NCBI GenBank assembly: GCA_021797855.1
Contig: JAJZYX010000006.1
Span: 1-55,930, forward strand
Length of the DNA: 55,930 bases
DNA from: Thermoplasmata archaeon
Lineage (GTDB): Archaea > Thermoplasmatota > Thermoplasmata > Thermoplasmatales > GCA-001856825
Reading direction: 5' to 3'
Shown here in pieces: positions 7,933 through 50,967 of the stretch. Position 1 is the stretch's first letter; the number at the start of each line of letters is the position of its first letter. The notes under the pieces are model-generated. The model was not told where the DNA came from, searched no databases, and was given only the letters and a program-made list of their open reading frames with translations. The position numbers were made by a program, and so were the translations under genes.

Positions 7933-9033
7933 ATGGTGTCCGTGGGAGAGATAATGACGAAAAAAGTGATTACTCTTACGACTGAAGACTTTATCTCTTC
8001 GGCCATAGCGAAGATGAGCGACAACAAGATGCACCACATCCCGATATTGGACGGGAGGGGTGATTACGTAGGCATGCTCGACTATAACCTCCTTTACAAG
8101 AGGGAGTCCATTCCTGTCACAACGAAGGTCAAGACGGTAATGGAAAGGACCCCCTCAGTCGGCCCGGAGGTGGACGTGTCGGAGGCAGCCAGAATAATGC
8201 TTGACAGCGGAATAAAAGCGCTTCCAGTGATAGAGAAAAACAAGCTGAAGGGTATCGTGACATCTACGGACATCGTCCACTCCATACGATCTATACCATC
8301 GGTTGCAGTTCTTCCTGCCTCGGAAATTATGTCGGGTGATCCTATCACAGTCTCTGAAGACGACGACCTCCTTGAAGCCCTCAGGAAGATGAGGGACATA
8401 GATGAAACAAGCATACCGGTCGTGAACAGGGAAGGGAAAGTATCAGGAATCGTGAATATCAACGACATCAGTAAAGAGCTGTGGAGGGGCAGAGGAAGGA
8501 TGAGGCAGGGGGAGTACTACAGGAACGTAACCAAACCCTCAGTGAAGGATGTCATGGCACCCCCTCTTGTTGTTAAGCCCACCGAAACACTCTCCTCTTG
8601 CATGGAAGCAATGACCAAATCGGACGCCAGGATATGCACGGTTGTAAACGAAGATATGGTGCCAGAGGGCGTCGTCAGCCAGAGTGACATCCTGGGAGAA
8701 ATTGTGAAGGGTACCACAGGCAATAGGGTCCTTGTCAATCTTTCAGGAGCTAGATTCGATGACCCTGAGGTATATGACAGGATATATTCCATCGTGGAGA
8801 AGACTGCAAAATCCGTTTCAAAGTTCAAACGGATGAAGCCCATGCTTATCAATATACACATAGAGGAATACAGCCAGACGGGGAAGGAGACAAAATATTC
8901 CGTCAGGGGAAAGATGGTCACTGAGTCAAAGACCTTCTTCTCCAGGAGCTGGGACTGGAACGTTTTCAGGGCAGTCAAGGAACTTATGGACCAATTTGAG
9001 AAGATGGTTCAGAAGAGCAAGAAGTATAAGTGA
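7933..9033 (+). CDS. Four-CBS-domain protein with a C-terminal HPF/RaiA-like domain
   Basis: About 366 residues from the ATG at 7933; a TTG at 7927 is also in frame. Four CBS motifs follow one another, each with the V(M/V)-(T/S)P-type entry and a terminal (S/N)xxDI: MTKKVITL...YNLL, VMERTPSV...STDIV, IMSGDPITV...NINDI and VMAPPLVV...SQSDI. Such tandems form discs that bind adenine nucleotides. The last 105 residues differ: an INIHIEEY strand, KYSVRGKMVTES and a long final helix WDWNVFRAVKELMDQFEK resemble ribosome hibernation factors of the HPF/RaiA family. I infer an energy-sensing ribosome-associated protein; the CBS part is sure, the tail less so. Confidence 0.82.
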   Translation: MVSVGEIMTKKVITLTTEDFISSAIAKMSDNKMHHIPILDGRGDYVGMLDYNLLYKRESIPVTTKVKTVMERTPSVGPEVDVSEAARIMLDSGIKALPVIEKNKLKGIVTSTDIVHSIRSIPSVAVLPASEIMSGDPITVSEDDDLLEALRKMRDIDETSIPVVNREGKVSGIVNINDISKELWRGRGRMRQGEYYRNVTKPSVKDVMAPPLVVKPTETLSSCMEAMTKSDARICTVVNEDMVPEGVVSQSDILGEIVKGTTGNRVLVNLSGARFDDPEVYDRIYSIVEKTAKSVSKFKRMKPMLINIHIEEYSQTGKETKYSVRGKMVTESKTFFSRSWDWNVFRAVKELMDQFEKMVQKSKKYK

Positions 9034-9048
9034 GAGGGTAGTGCTGAA

Positions 9049-10431
9049 ATGCAGGAGTTCGTAGACAGGGCACTGGATTATGCAGCTGGGAAGTCTAGGT
9101 TTGCAGAGGTGAGGTTCTTCTCCTCGACGCGGAACGCAGTTCTCATGAAGAACGGGTCAGTTTCCGCCTCCGGATATTCGGTGGATGCCGGACTTTCCTT
9201 CAGAGTGCTCAACAGGTCGATGGCCTTTTCCGCAATAAATATACCAGACTGGGAAAGGATAAGGAGCGAGATCGACAGGGCACTGAGGATATCGGAGAAA
9301 CCCGGAAGGGGCGATTTCTCATCGGAGGAACCCGTAAAGGACAAGTGGGAAGTTGGGCAGAAACGGAGAATAGAAGAGGAGACCTTTGAAGACAGGATTG
9401 AGAGAGTCAAGGAACTGGACAATCTTCTGGTTGACAAGAAGGTACAGATGAGAATGATATCACTCAGTGACAACATAGAGGAGGAGCTGAATGCAAATTC
9501 CGAAGGGATGGAGATTACGTCCAGGCTGCCTAAGGTCGGGCTCTTTGCAATGATTGGACTGCTGGAGAACGGTACGTTTGAGCAGGGGTCCATAGAAGTG
9601 GGATTCTCCGGTGGATACGAAGCTTTCGATACCTGGAAGCTGGATGAGAGGTTCAGTCATGAGGCGGAAGTCCTCAGGAACGCCGTCAATTCAAAAAAAA
9701 TAGAGGAAGGGGTATACGATGTCATTGCGGGCCCGGAAATTTCTGGAATAGTTGCTCATGAGAGTGCAGGTCACCCGACAGAATCCGATAGAATACTGGG
9801 AAGGGAGATGGCCCAGGCCGGCGAGTCGTTCATCAAGAGGGGAGACAAGGGGAGGAGGGTAGGCTCTTCCATTGTCAACCTGGTTGACGATCCCACGATG
9901 GAACACAGTTTCGGCTACTACAAATACGATCGGGACGGAGTCAGAGCAAGGAAGAGGTATCTTTACAAGCAAGGCATAATAAACGAGTTCCTGAGCAACA
10001 GGGAGAGCGCCGGAAGGCTCGGAGAAATGAGCAACGCTGCCTCCAGGTCATCGGAGTGGGACAAGGAGCCGCTGGTGAGAATGAGCACAACATTCATCGA
10101 ACCTGGTGATCACAACCTGGATGAGCTGCTGGAGGGGATCAAGGAAGGGATATACATAAAGAGCTTTACAGAGTGGAACATAGACGACATCAGGTTCAAC
10201 GAGAAGTATGTCGGTAGGGAGGCCTACAGGATAAGGAACGGCGAGATCAAAGAGGTCATAAGGAGACCAGTGATAGAGACCACCACCATCAATTTTTACT
10301 CCTCCATAGATGCTGTTGGGAAGGACCTGGAATTTTCTGCTGGCACCTGCGGCAAGGGTGACCCGATGCAGGGTGTGGATGTCTGGATGGGCGGGCCTCA
10401 CATCAGGCTAAGAAATATGAGCGTAAGGTGA
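9049..10431 (+). CDS. tldD: TldD-type metalloprotease subunit
   Basis: 460 residues, the usual TldD length. The zinc site is the HExxxH motif VAHESAGHPTESDRILG, followed by the typical DDPTMEHSFGYYKYDRDGVRARKRYLYKQG-type region (YDRDGVRA) and a C-terminal GTCGKGDPMQGVDVW motif. TldD pairs with TldE (PmbA) to form a protease that degrades unfolded peptides and matures small modified peptides in bacteria. Its partner follows directly, with 6 nt between stop and start, so the two form an operon. In archaea the substrate is unknown. Confidence 0.95.
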   Translation: MQEFVDRALDYAAGKSRFAEVRFFSSTRNAVLMKNGSVSASGYSVDAGLSFRVLNRSMAFSAINIPDWERIRSEIDRALRISEKPGRGDFSSEEPVKDKWEVGQKRRIEEETFEDRIERVKELDNLLVDKKVQMRMISLSDNIEEELNANSEGMEITSRLPKVGLFAMIGLLENGTFEQGSIEVGFSGGYEAFDTWKLDERFSHEAEVLRNAVNSKKIEEGVYDVIAGPEISGIVAHESAGHPTESDRILGREMAQAGESFIKRGDKGRRVGSSIVNLVDDPTMEHSFGYYKYDRDGVRARKRYLYKQGIINEFLSNRESAGRLGEMSNAASRSSEWDKEPLVRMSTTFIEPGDHNLDELLEGIKEGIYIKSFTEWNIDDIRFNEKYVGREAYRIRNGEIKEVIRRPVIETTTINFYSSIDAVGKDLEFSAGTCGKGDPMQGVDVWMGGPHIRLRNMSVR

Positions 10432-10437
10432 TATCTC

Positions 10438-11736
10438 ATGGATGCAGAGAGAATATATGGAAAACTGGAGAGGAAGGTGGACCAGGCCGCAGTCAAGGTG
10501 ACAAGGTCCAACATCACACAGGTCAGGTTCTCTAACAACAAAATAGACATAACAAACACCTGGGATGAGGAGTCTGCTTCTGTCTTCCTGGCCAAGAACG
10601 GCAGAACTTTCGTATTTGAACTAAGGTATGAAGAGGACCTGGAGAGGATTCTTGCTAAAGCCCTTGGAACCCTGGAAAAGATAGAAAAGAACCCGGACTT
10701 CATAAGCCTCAACGACAAGAAGAATACTTTCAGGAAGAAGAGCATAAAAGGGAAGAAACTTATGGAAATTGACGGGCCGACCTTCGTGGAAGATTTCATA
10801 GACGGAATAAGACCGTTCGTGAAGCGGGCAGGGGGAGTATTTTACAAGAGGGATGTTGAGGAATGGGTGAAAACTCCGTTTAACAGCGGGTCGGAGAGAT
10901 TGTTCGGAGTGGAGTTAGTTGCAAGGACGTTCAACGATTCCGACTATCCAGTCCAGACTTCCATTGCCACTTCGTCTGATGATGATTTCGACAAGGTCAT
11001 GAGCCAAGACAAGGAATTGCTGGAACTAAGCAGGAATATCAGGAATATCAAGGAAGGTAGGGAGGGGAAGTTTAATGTGATCTTCAGCCCTCTGTGTTTT
11101 GCTTCCATAGTTTCATATACAGTTCCCATGGCATCTGCCTTTCAGGTGGACATGGGGATGTCGGTTTTCGCGGACAGAATGGGGGAGAGACTTGGAAGCA
11201 GCTCCCTGACTATCTACGACGATCCCACAGACGAAACAATGTTCAACTCCAAGACCTTTGACGACGAGGGAAGCCCTACGAGGAAGACTCCGGTCATAGA
11301 GAGGGGGATTGTAAGGAGTTATCTTCACAACTTCTCGACCGCCTCGAAGTACAAAACCGAAACGACAGGGAACGCAGGCATAGTGAGCCCTCTCCCGTGG
11401 CAGATCGCAGTAGAACCCGGAAACGAGGACGTTCAGGATATGATTGCTTCGATGAAAAGCGGCCTTTTTATAAACAACACCTGGTATACAAGATTCCAGG
11501 ACTACAGGGAAGGTATATTCTCCACCATTCCAAGGGACGGTATATTCTATATAGAGAACGGAGAAATCAAGGAGAGCTGGATGGGAATCAGGATTTCCGA
11601 TTCCCTGCCACACATTTACAGAAATATTGAGGGGATCAGCAGGGAGACCAAAAAGGTGAAGTGGTGGGATGAAACCATGCACACGAAATCTCCATACGTA
11701 GAGGTTGCAGACGTGAATATCTCAAGGAGCAGGTGA
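10438..11736 (+). CDS. tldE: TldE/PmbA-type protease subunit
   Basis: 432 residues of the PmbA/TldA family without the HExxxH metal motif, as expected for the non-catalytic partner of TldD. Family features are the N-terminal KVTRSNITQVRFSNNKID strand pair, the central PLCFASIVSYTVPMASAFQ helix and the C-terminal DGIFYIENGEIKES segment. The ATG at 10438 is preceded by a GGTGAT ribosome site. It lies immediately after tldD. Confidence 0.92.
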   Translation: MDAERIYGKLERKVDQAAVKVTRSNITQVRFSNNKIDITNTWDEESASVFLAKNGRTFVFELRYEEDLERILAKALGTLEKIEKNPDFISLNDKKNTFRKKSIKGKKLMEIDGPTFVEDFIDGIRPFVKRAGGVFYKRDVEEWVKTPFNSGSERLFGVELVARTFNDSDYPVQTSIATSSDDDFDKVMSQDKELLELSRNIRNIKEGREGKFNVIFSPLCFASIVSYTVPMASAFQVDMGMSVFADRMGERLGSSSLTIYDDPTDETMFNSKTFDDEGSPTRKTPVIERGIVRSYLHNFSTASKYKTETTGNAGIVSPLPWQIAVEPGNEDVQDMIASMKSGLFINNTWYTRFQDYREGIFSTIPRDGIFYIENGEIKESWMGIRISDSLPHIYRNIEGISRETKKVKWWDETMHTKSPYVEVADVNISRSR

Positions 11737-48063: not shown

Positions 48064-48549
48064 ATGGTAAGGGACATCCCCCTCATTCTATACAAGAACG
48101 AAGATGACCCGAAGAAATGCACGGCAAGAAAGATGAGGAGGTTCAAGATGGCCATTTTCATAAACAGGATACCTTATAACAGCGTGATCCTGTATTCCGA
48201 TTCCTCCATCAGACTTTCTCTCGAGGATTCCCGCTTTAGTAACCTGGTGGCCGTTGACGTTTCCTGGGAAAACGTTGCAAATTATCATTTCCCAAAGGAA
48301 CACACGAGGTCCCTCCCTTACCTCCTGGCAGCAAATCCCGTCAACTACGGGAAGCCCTTCAAGCTTTCAACTGTCGAGGCAATTGCAGCCTCCTACTATA
48401 TCCTTGGAAAGAAGGATGTGGCCCTCAAGATGCTTTCAAAGTTCTCCTGGGGGTTGCAGTTCATAAGGCTCAATCAGAATCCGTTGAACGATTATTCTAG
48501 GGCAAGAAATACAACTGAGATTGAGGACATCGAGAAGCAGTATTTTTAG
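48064..48549 (+). CDS. tsr3: 16S rRNA aminocarboxypropyltransferase Tsr3
   Basis: 161 residues of the Tsr3 family (SPOUT-like), which moves the 3-amino-3-carboxypropyl group of SAM onto a modified base of small-subunit rRNA. The N-terminal YKNEDDPKKCTARKMRRF and the SAM-side motif LPYLLAANPVNYGKPFKLSTVEAIAASYYILG are diagnostic, with FSWGLQFIRLNQNPLNDY at the end. It is divergent from mvaA. The last 4 nt overlap the MurL-like gene on the other strand. Confidence 0.93.
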   Translation: MVRDIPLILYKNEDDPKKCTARKMRRFKMAIFINRIPYNSVILYSDSSIRLSLEDSRFSNLVAVDVSWENVANYHFPKEHTRSLPYLLAANPVNYGKPFKLSTVEAIAASYYILGKKDVALKMLSKFSWGLQFIRLNQNPLNDYSRARNTTEIEDIEKQYF

Positions 48550-49934
48550 GTCCATTCTCCGTTCTGAAGGTGAGTCCTTCCCTTTGTGTATTCCTTCAAT
48601 ATTTCCATGATCTTCCCCCTCCACCTTTCGTCGATCATCTCGCTATTCGCGAACTCCGGGTCCTCGTGGATTTTTTCCACGTGTTCATGGTACTTCCCGT
48701 GTTTCCCTCCAGACATGAGGAAAGTGGCGTGTTCTTTCTCATCCTCGTCCAGGCGAAACAGTCTTTCGGTGTACGTCCTCAGGAAATCCTGGATGTCCTG
48801 CTCCCTGTAGTTTATCGTCCTTGGATCGATTGAGTTTGCGCAGAGGAAAAGGAGTATGCCGTCGCACTTGGTGCATCGTCCGCAAGGTACAATCTGTCCG
48901 TTCTCTTCGTGGCAGCTGTGACATGATCGCTGCAGTCTTGCCAGCTCTGGGTATCGACTGAAGAGAATCTTTTCTTCAACCAGCCCGGTTATGTTCCTAA
49001 CGGCAGAGTAGAGTCTTATGTGGTACCCTATGTTTCTGAAGTAATCGTTCATTGCTTCATCGAAATGCTGCGTCTGGTCGTATATTGCGTAGTAATGGTT
49101 GATTCCATACTCAGGCTTGAAACTTCTTGGATCGTCGAATTCGTCCCCTTTCAGCACACCCGATATCCCAAATTTCTTGAAGTATGGAATGGATGAAAAT
49201 ATGTAAACGGGGAAGATGAAGAGCTGAACCGGGTAAGTATCAGACCACATTGTCAGAGCCCTTTCATTGAGCGCCCTCACCTTCGAGTTCATCTTCCTAT
49301 AGAACCTATCTATCGTAGTCCATATCTTCAGGGTATTCTGGTATCTGGTCTTGAAATAATCATAGGCAACGCTTGCTGTTTTCCAGTGGCCCCCAGATTC
49401 ATTAACAAATATTGGGTACACGTTGGCACCTGCCTCCCTCATTATGCCAAATGAGAGGAGACTGTCCTTCCCTCCGCTCGACATTATCGCGACTGAGTCC
49501 TTTTCATTCTCATTGAAGGGCGCCCTCAGGTTTTGTTCCTTGTCTATCTCAATTCTGGGTAAATAGCTCGCTTCTTCAGTGCTTGGAGAACTAGGGACAA
49601 ATTCTTCCCTGTAGAATTCTTTACGCTTCAGAAGTTTGTTCACATAAATTTCCCTGCTGTTGATGACCATCATCTTCGAGATGAAGTCGTAGTCCTTCTG
49701 CGAGATTGGGAAGTCTGCTTCTATCACCTCTGTGAAAAGGGAGTAGTTGACAAGAGGTATCAAAGACAGCATCCTCAGGTCCTGTCTTTCCATTGTTATT
49801 GGGAAGTCGTAGCTGAAAGAGAGCGAGACCTCCTCCCGGTCAACCAGGTACTTGAGTGAGATGAGGCCGTTCCTGAGTTCAGGCTCAAACAACCTTACTT
49901 TCTCAATCGATAATAATCTGCCTTTGGCCTGCAA
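48546..49934 (-). CDS. MurL-like PP-loop ATPase, putative glutamate epimerase
   Basis: 462 residues from a TTG within the end of the DgcN gene (32-nt overlap). The N-terminal beta domain covers about 1-130. The PP-loop SSGGKDSLLSFG is at 152-163, marking an enzyme that adenylates its substrate. Later parts are NHYYAIYDQTQHFDEAMNDY, LVEEKILFSRYPEL and a zinc knuckle with C338, C341, C351, C354 and C357. This series (PP-loop, N-H, helical, CxxC...CGxCxKC) is the layout of MurL, the bacterial enzyme that epimerises the terminal L-Glu of UDP-MurNAc-dipeptide. Archaea lack that substrate, so the target here is another glutamate compound. Confidence 0.65.
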   Translation of the reverse strand: MQAKGRLLSIEKVRLFEPELRNGLISLKYLVDREEVSLSFSYDFPITMERQDLRMLSLIPLVNYSLFTEVIEADFPISQKDYDFISKMMVINSREIYVNKLLKRKEFYREEFVPSSPSTEEASYLPRIEIDKEQNLRAPFNENEKDSVAIMSSGGKDSLLSFGIMREAGANVYPIFVNESGGHWKTASVAYDYFKTRYQNTLKIWTTIDRFYRKMNSKVRALNERALTMWSDTYPVQLFIFPVYIFSSIPYFKKFGISGVLKGDEFDDPRSFKPEYGINHYYAIYDQTQHFDEAMNDYFRNIGYHIRLYSAVRNITGLVEEKILFSRYPELARLQRSCHSCHEENGQIVPCGRCTKCDGILLFLCANSIDPRTINYREQDIQDFLRTYTERLFRLDEDEKEHATFLMSGGKHGKYHEHVEKIHEDPEFANSEMIDERWRGKIMEILKEYTKGRTHLQNGEWT

Positions 49935-50967
49935 AATTCGCCACCAATTCTCCTAGCCTCTCTATCTCCAGCATCGGAATGATTGCTGGTATGTGATATT
50001 TCATTTCATAGTCTTGTGCTGCCTGAAGAGCCTCCTGAGAAGTGAGGTTTTGCGTGTTTATTGTTATTGCTATTACCTTCTTCCCTGACAGGAGTTCTAA
50101 TATTTTAATCACTCTTCCAACATCCGGCATGGGGTACTTCTCGAACCCATCCAGGAACTTTCGGCCTGGAGCGTCCTGAAGGATGATAGCGTCCGGCCTA
50201 CCCGCGGCTATTATCTCGAAACTGCCAGGATAGGCTGGGTGAACCACGGAACCCTGCCCTTCCAGCAGTATGAAATCGGGTGAGCTCTTCCTCCACGCCT
50301 CCACCACCTCGTTTTCTATGGCACCCGCAACGAAATCGTTTATCGTTGCATCTATCACAGCTGTGTGCTCAATTCCTTGCATCCAGGATGTCTGGCCGGT
50401 CCCAACCATCTCCGCAGTGAATTTTCTTCTCTGCAGTTCCTTCATAAGCATTATCGTTGTAGTTCTCTTCCCGATTGCGCTGTCCGTGCCGAGCACGGCG
50501 ATCTTGAATGATTTTACCTTCTCTATCTCACCCGTGAATGGGATCTTCCTGTCCCTGAATATTTTCCTCACGTCAATGATTTCGACGTTATTCTCTTGGG
50601 CCAAACCGTAAAGTTCCGGGTCGTCAGATATGAAATCGTGGAGTCCATTTACGATATTAATCCCCTTTTTGATTGCCTCCTTGACAACATCACGATATTC
50701 TGGTGGGAGAACTCCACCATCAGTGGCAGCTCCGATGATCAGGTATTTTGGATCATACTGGAGGGAATCATCCAAGCTGGCGACTATTGGAATCCCCTTG
50801 TTCCTCCCCTCAAGGTATTCACCTGCATCGATCCCAACAAGCTGCGAGTCTATGACTGCAACGATCTTGTAACGTGTTGAGAATCTGACGAGACCATGGG
50901 CAGTCTTACCGTATGTCGAAGAGAACACCTTTTCTGCAAGAATAACGGCTCTATCCATTTCGCCCAT
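49903..50967 (-). CDS. DUF1611 protein, DgcN-type D-glutamate N-acetyltransferase
   Basis: 354 residues from the ATG at 50967, which has a perfect GGAGGTG ribosome site 6 nt upstream; the frame extends 20 codons further. The N-terminal Rossmann-like domain has VAVIDSQLVGIDAGEYL and IIGAATDGGVLP. The C-terminal P-loop domain has VLGTDSAIGKRTTTIML, VGTGQTSWMQGIEH and LLEGQGSVVHPAYPG. These are DUF1611 marks. The family includes DgcN, which acetylates D-glutamate before epimerisation by DgcA. Here the next gene is a MurL-like enzyme instead. Confidence 0.82.
   Translation of the reverse strand: MGEMDRAVILAEKVFSSTYGKTAHGLVRFSTRYKIVAVIDSQLVGIDAGEYLEGRNKGIPIVASLDDSLQYDPKYLIIGAATDGGVLPPEYRDVVKEAIKKGINIVNGLHDFISDDPELYGLAQENNVEIIDVRKIFRDRKIPFTGEIEKVKSFKIAVLGTDSAIGKRTTTIMLMKELQRRKFTAEMVGTGQTSWMQGIEHTAVIDATINDFVAGAIENEVVEAWRKSSPDFILLEGQGSVVHPAYPGSFEIIAAGRPDAIILQDAPGRKFLDGFEKYPMPDVGRVIKILELLSGKKVIAITINTQNLTSQEALQAAQDYEMKYHIPAIIPMLEIERLGELVANFAGQRQIIID

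Follow-up and report, generated by a model that had tools for sequence, protein, structure and literature searches.

A DUF1611 gene paired with a QueC-fold PP-loop gene in Thermoplasmatota: a candidate archaeal D-glutamate module

What does a DgcN-like protein do when its gene is coupled to that of a PP-loop enzyme? This question is raised by two overlapping genes at 48546-50967 in a stretch of 55,930 nucleotides from a Thermoplasmata archaeon (contig JAJZYX010000006.1), called the window below. The DgcN-DgcA pathway of D-glutamate is known from marine Proteobacteria and haloarchaea, while the host archaea considered here are acid-loving and have no peptidoglycan wall. An earlier note on this DNA had proposed a D-glutamate route in which DgcN is followed by a MurL-like, ATP-driven epimerase in place of DgcA. 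Here, we establish the genes, their conservation, their linkage, the fold class of the PP-loop protein and the company of D-amino-acid genes, and we weigh what the operon may do. The features of the locus are:

48064-48549, (+) strand: gene of a TSR3-like rRNA aminocarboxypropyltransferase, convergent neighbour (PF04034, 7.2e-39)
48546-49934, (-) strand: gene of the PP-loop/zinc-knuckle protein, 462 aa, TTG start, a proposed ATP-dependent carboxylate-activating epimerase (conserved family; AlphaFold2 model; fold near QatC and QueC)
48864-48923, (-) strand: Cys-rich zinc knuckle C-x2-C-x9-C-x2-C-x2-C, residues 338-357 (C338, C341, C351, C354, C357)
49461-49481, (-) strand: PP-loop motif SSGGKDS, residues 152-158 (most relatives have SSGGKES)
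49903-49934, (-) strand: overlap of the DUF1611 and PP-loop genes, 32 nt (co-transcription, possible translational coupling)
49903-50967, (-) strand: DUF1611 gene, 354 aa, a probable DgcN-like amino-acid N-acetyltransferase (matches to PF07755 and PF17396)
50458-50490, (-) strand: DUF1611 P-loop GTDSAIGKRTT, residues 160-170 (alignment with relatives and solved members)

The DUF1611 protein belongs to its family by both Pfam domains, which exceed their gathering cut-offs: PF07755 with 3.9e-59 and 199.9 bits (cut-off 25), and PF17396 with 1.1e-29 and 103.1 bits (cut-off 22.6). The solved homologues are 2g0t, 2obn and 7xrj; the P-loop aligns with that of solved members, and all but one of its positions are invariant across 18 relatives. 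The reading frame is open to 51027, yet the homologues begin at the same Met as 50967. The name DgcN, given in the earlier note, is appropriate for the family in the broad sense, but the curated equivalog model NF041892 yields 163.2 bits against a cut-off of 480; other archaeal DUF1611 proteins reach 162-229 bits on it. To judge from the sequence, the protein is probably a DgcN-like amino-acid N-acetyltransferase.

The gene that follows is indeed not DgcA, since it encodes a PP-loop protein and not the enolase-superfamily fold required by the DgcA model NF042940. The SGGKDS motif and the five-Cys zinc knuckle reported for it are both present and conserved among the aligned homologues. The pattern SS(G/S)GK(E/D)(S/A)L is kept in 30/30 members of each of two alignments (A1 and A5), and the five cysteines in 30/30 and 29/30, respectively. 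The AlphaFold2 model is confident (pLDDT 91.6, pTM 0.91), and Foldseek matches it to QatC over the whole length (E 3.6e-5, TM ~0.4, probability 1.00) and to QueC for the core (E 2.3e-4, probability 1.00). QueC, QatC and Cap9 are thus the top structural matches, and the protein has what defines the QueC-fold PP-loop superfamily, namely the SGGx(D/E)S loop, a C-terminal zinc knuckle of the Cys4 type and a Rossmann-like core. Its modelled fold is accordingly of the QueC class, the chemistry of which is carboxylate activation by ATP. Whether searched as a single sequence, as a consensus or as 30 members, the family exceeds no Pfam, NCBIfam or PADLOC cut-off; PDB searches with phmmer and with profiles yielded no usable match, and relatives were found neither in the plasmids nor in the viral contigs searched. 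The protein diverges faster than DUF1611. It is an enzyme of the QueC-fold, carboxylate-activating type, and constitutes a family of its own.

We now turn to the linkage of the two genes. The 32-nt overlap described in the earlier note is confirmed, and it is identical in the loci of the window's genus and of a sister genus; in other families the genes overlap slightly or are separated, by about 0.5 kb in one locus of family f3. The PP-loop gene is carried by 46/250 Thermoplasmata genomes, and in 46/46 of these it lies adjacent to DUF1611 on the same contig, as read from the coordinates. With the gene present in 46 genomes and adjacent to DUF1611 in every one, the pairing is not due to chance. 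Beyond the class, but within the phylum, a search with the family profile matched 26 further genomes, and the pairing recurs in a second class, where DUF1611 is directly upstream in 15/20 fetched loci (14 by ORF comparison and L166 by coordinates). Among the remaining loci, L163 has DUF1611 two ORFs away, L158 ends at a contig edge and L165 is a second copy, while in L162 DUF1611 was not found beside the PP-loop gene by ORF comparison. An apparent loss in L155 was rejected, as a run of N lies there. In the tree, the DUF1611 proteins with a PP-loop partner constitute a single clade (support 100/99), with or without the second class. Two irregular copies were also seen: a broken second PP-loop gene with several in-frame stops (G153:C43:10758-11251), in a genome that has an intact one elsewhere, and a DUF1611 match within a 722-aa ORF (L163:8970-11138, genome G261), which may be a fusion or an ORF lengthened by a spurious start.

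Most other lineages have a three-gene operon, PALP-DUF1611-PP-loop, the first gene encoding a PLP enzyme that NCBIfam PRK06381 names threonine synthase. PALP is upstream also in 14/20 second-class loci. Examples in the DUF1611 operon are L066:5542-6489 and L069:8944-9894. In the genus of the window, PALP is absent beside the window's own pair and is located elsewhere in the genome (L113:8727-9755); the idea that it is a pseudogene with in-frame stops there was rejected for the copy read, which gives a 342-aa ORF. Just upstream of this copy, a 183-aa ORF has a weak tubulin/FtsZ match (L113:8179-8730). That PALP is an ordinary threonine synthase is doubtful, since a separate homologue of 348 aa, whose Cys-rich N-terminus resembles a zinc ribbon, is encoded in the genome G082 (L119:674-1720). 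The operon enzyme may therefore have another role, and its name may be wrong.

The surroundings of DUF1611 speak for D-amino acids, in line with the D-glutamate theme of the earlier note: homologues of D-aminoacyl-tRNA deacylase, ornithine racemase and L-Ala-D/L-Glu epimerase are all encoded beside it. In families f2, f10, f11, f18 and f19, DUF1611 is near an enolase-superfamily gene that scores highest with the L-Ala-D/L-Glu epimerase and DgcA models, and in G037 it overlaps an Orr-like ornithine racemase gene (L102:4300-6442).

Taken together, the linkage in 46/46 genomes and 15/20 loci, the single DUF1611 clade and the neighbouring stereochemistry genes argue for an operon acting on D-glutamate or on some D-glutamyl compound, the PP-loop enzyme activating the alpha-carboxylate, most simply in order to epimerise it. 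This is the explanation that we prefer, tentatively, at somewhat less than an even chance. The steps of the proposed route (acetylation, adenylation and inversion) and its substrate are inferred. DUF1611 would N-acetylate the D-amino acid, by analogy with DgcN. The PP-loop enzyme would then bind ATP and adenylate the alpha-carboxylate of an N-acyl (or peptidyl) glutamate, and the C-alpha proton, thereby acidified, would exchange. Hydrolysis of the adenylate would leave the stereocentre inverted in one direction at the expense of ATP, as proposed for MurL. N-acetyl-glutamate is what a DgcN-like enzyme should produce, and MurL-type chemistry on it is therefore the simplest account of the operon. 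More specifically, there could be an archaeal, ATP-driven, one-way epimerase of QueC/MurL fold that acts on N-acetyl- or peptidyl-glutamate and is coupled to acetylation by DUF1611, making it a second, unrelated solution to the DgcA step; this is conceivable, but we regard it as rather doubtful.

The epimerase reading draws on the QueC-class fold and on weak MurL matches, collinear with the profile, to the PP-loop and, in five close relatives, to the zinc region. Against it, the MurL match is very weak, other QueC-type enzymes yield amides, nitriles or protein conjugates, and the ATP outlay would be costly for a catabolic racemisation. Further points against the preferred explanation are that PALP does not fit clearly into the route, that the Asp/Glu racemase family (PF01177) occurs in just 3/13 genomes tested, and that 11 to 15 of the genomes with the PP-loop gene also have a DgcA-like match of moderate strength. 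To our knowledge, a single enzyme, in peptidoglycan synthesis, has so far been described to epimerise with ATP. If the preferred explanation is true, archaeal D-amino-acid metabolism gains a counterpart of it, a function is assigned to an uncharacterised protein family that spans two Thermoplasmatota classes, and there is a reason for wall-less archaea to retain DgcN-like genes.

How close, then, is the PP-loop protein to MurL itself? MurL requires ATP and Mg and yields AMP; adenylation of the alpha-carboxylate has been proposed to precede the inversion (PMC5808125, PMC8788868). An inversion driven by ATP would fit the operon, the lengths are similar (447 for MurL vs 462), and the PP-loop is equally placed. 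However, the identification as MurL does not stand: NCBIfam NF041275 gives 14.4 bits (E 0.0096, profile 137-172, over the PP-loop) against a cut-off of 700, QatC, QueC and DUF6395 are about equally near, and in the comparison of the 462-aa protein with MurL and other PP-loop families no family passes. The best MurL profile E-value among 30 family members is 0.00038, and five close relatives have further weak matches, correctly ordered, in the zinc region (profile about 252-360). At 0.001 the MurL profile matches no archaeal genome, but no control genome either; when E-values as high as 10 are allowed, some weak matches fall within the PP-loop gene, mostly along the expected part, with one in G110 out of order. 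Foldseek returned no MurL structure. Further differences are that no MurD2-like partner is found among the scanned neighbours (DUF1611, TSR3, HMG-CoA reductase and an HTH regulator) and that the host archaea do not synthesise peptidoglycan. A kinship with MurL is no more than possible.

The main rival follows from the closest solved folds, those of QatC and QueC, in which carboxylate activation prepares for attack by an amine. DUF1611 would here produce an N-acetyl amino acid, the carboxylate of which the PP-loop enzyme, acting like QueC or an amidotransferase, would activate for ammonia or an amine. The product would be an N-acetyl-amino-acid amide or a conjugate that serves as an osmolyte or cofactor precursor, and PALP would provide an unusual amino acid. 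The expense of ATP suits biosynthesis and PALP does belong to the operon, but the D-amino-acid genes nearby are left unexplained. In addition, where the QueC signature YxQxHxxE (PMC13329287) is expected, the PP-loop protein has ESGxHW. All in all, we consider such a biosynthetic amidation unlikely. It is important to point out that the protein does not classify as QueC: with PF06508 it scores 11.1 bits (E 0.28), below the cut-off of 22, and a canonical QueC is encoded separately in 13/13 genomes tested. Its five-Cys knuckle is similar to the QueC zinc motif C(x)8CxxCxxC (PMC13329287), and in PADLOC the family consensus matches QueC only (E 0.0028), QatC giving no match. An N-terminal extension is shared with QatC; QatC of the defence system qatABCD was nevertheless rejected, the operon being PALP-DUF1611-PP-loop with no qat genes among the scanned neighbours. 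DUF6395 (PF19932) is related at E 4.7e-5 in an hhalign profile comparison. Its members, of about 400-460 aa, likewise have a PP-loop followed by a CxxCxKC zinc motif, but they belong to an archaeal surface-polysaccharide gene cluster, in which a DUF1611 partner was not seen. One such cluster encodes three DUF6395-type PP-loop/zinc proteins (L112:8731-16591, genome G263).

Another option is a general removal or recycling of D-amino acids that protects translation, in which a deacylase acts, N-acetylation blocks charging and the residue, which may vary by lineage, is re-inverted. Consistent with this, a D-aminoacyl-tRNA deacylase gene (PF04414) is directly upstream of PALP in 13/15 loci inspected in family f3 (for example L067:4783-5556, L072:4726-5520 and L131-L134), and the ornithine racemase gene of G037 adjoins DUF1611. 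However, the deacylase linkage is confined to this one family (the gene is on the opposite side of the operon in G082 and 50 kb away in G024), and the second-class neighbours are specifically of the L-Ala-D-Glu type, which makes this option distinctly improbable. Modification of a protein or tRNA by the PP-loop protein, with a merely regulatory link to DUF1611, is very unlikely: protein conjugation is reported or proposed for QatC and Cap9, which share the fold class, and the adjacent TSR3 acts on rRNA, but TSR3 is convergent and shifts position in some families, the DUF1611 linkage holds across classes, and the 13 genomes have their separate QueC. Most loci of the order have the TSR3-like gene as their convergent neighbour, families f4 and f15 being exceptions, and this gene is probably outside the D-glutamate module.

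Returning to the D-glutamate module, the remaining question is whether the PP-loop enzyme replaces DgcA, as the earlier note had it. The DgcN-DgcA pathway is similar in its DUF1611 acetyltransferase family, and in sister Thermoplasmata DgcA-like genes of the enolase superfamily lie near DUF1611; the window and its order, by contrast, have the PP-loop enzyme as the partner of DUF1611. Within Thermoplasmata, a DgcA-like match below 1e-45 is found in 71/81 DUF1611 genomes that lack the PP-loop gene, in 11/46 that have both, and in 11/123 that lack DUF1611, although these counts are uncorrected for phylogeny and, the genomes being related, the test values are not probabilities. They are compatible with a partial replacement. 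In the second class, however, an L-Ala-D/L-Glu epimerase/DgcA-like gene is no more than a few kb away from the PP-loop gene, and the PP-loop enzyme is therefore no simple stand-in for DgcA. This also weighs against the epimerase reading, as a second epimerase is not obviously needed there. The two results could be reconciled if the dipeptide were the substrate of the enolase-type enzyme and the N-acetyl form that of the PP-loop enzyme.

In seven second-class loci, the L-Ala-D/L-Glu epimerase homologue and an M14-like peptidase are just downstream on the opposite strand; a GNAT gene intervenes in the locus scanned. The one epimerase homologue tested has 1jpm as its best solved match (1.4e-72), and the M14-like protein, of about 450 aa, has the M14-type HxxE, H and E residues. 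In L150 the two genes adjoin (8345-9709 and 9699-10769). They are possibly a pair for scavenging murein peptides, and the arrangement is similar to that of ycjG and ykfB, which are surrounded by murein-peptide genes (PMC5808125). Finally, family f10 has a second, early-branching DUF1611 copy (L091), and at L091:3748-7197 a DASS-type anion symporter, PALP and DUF1611 stand in a row with no PP-loop gene.
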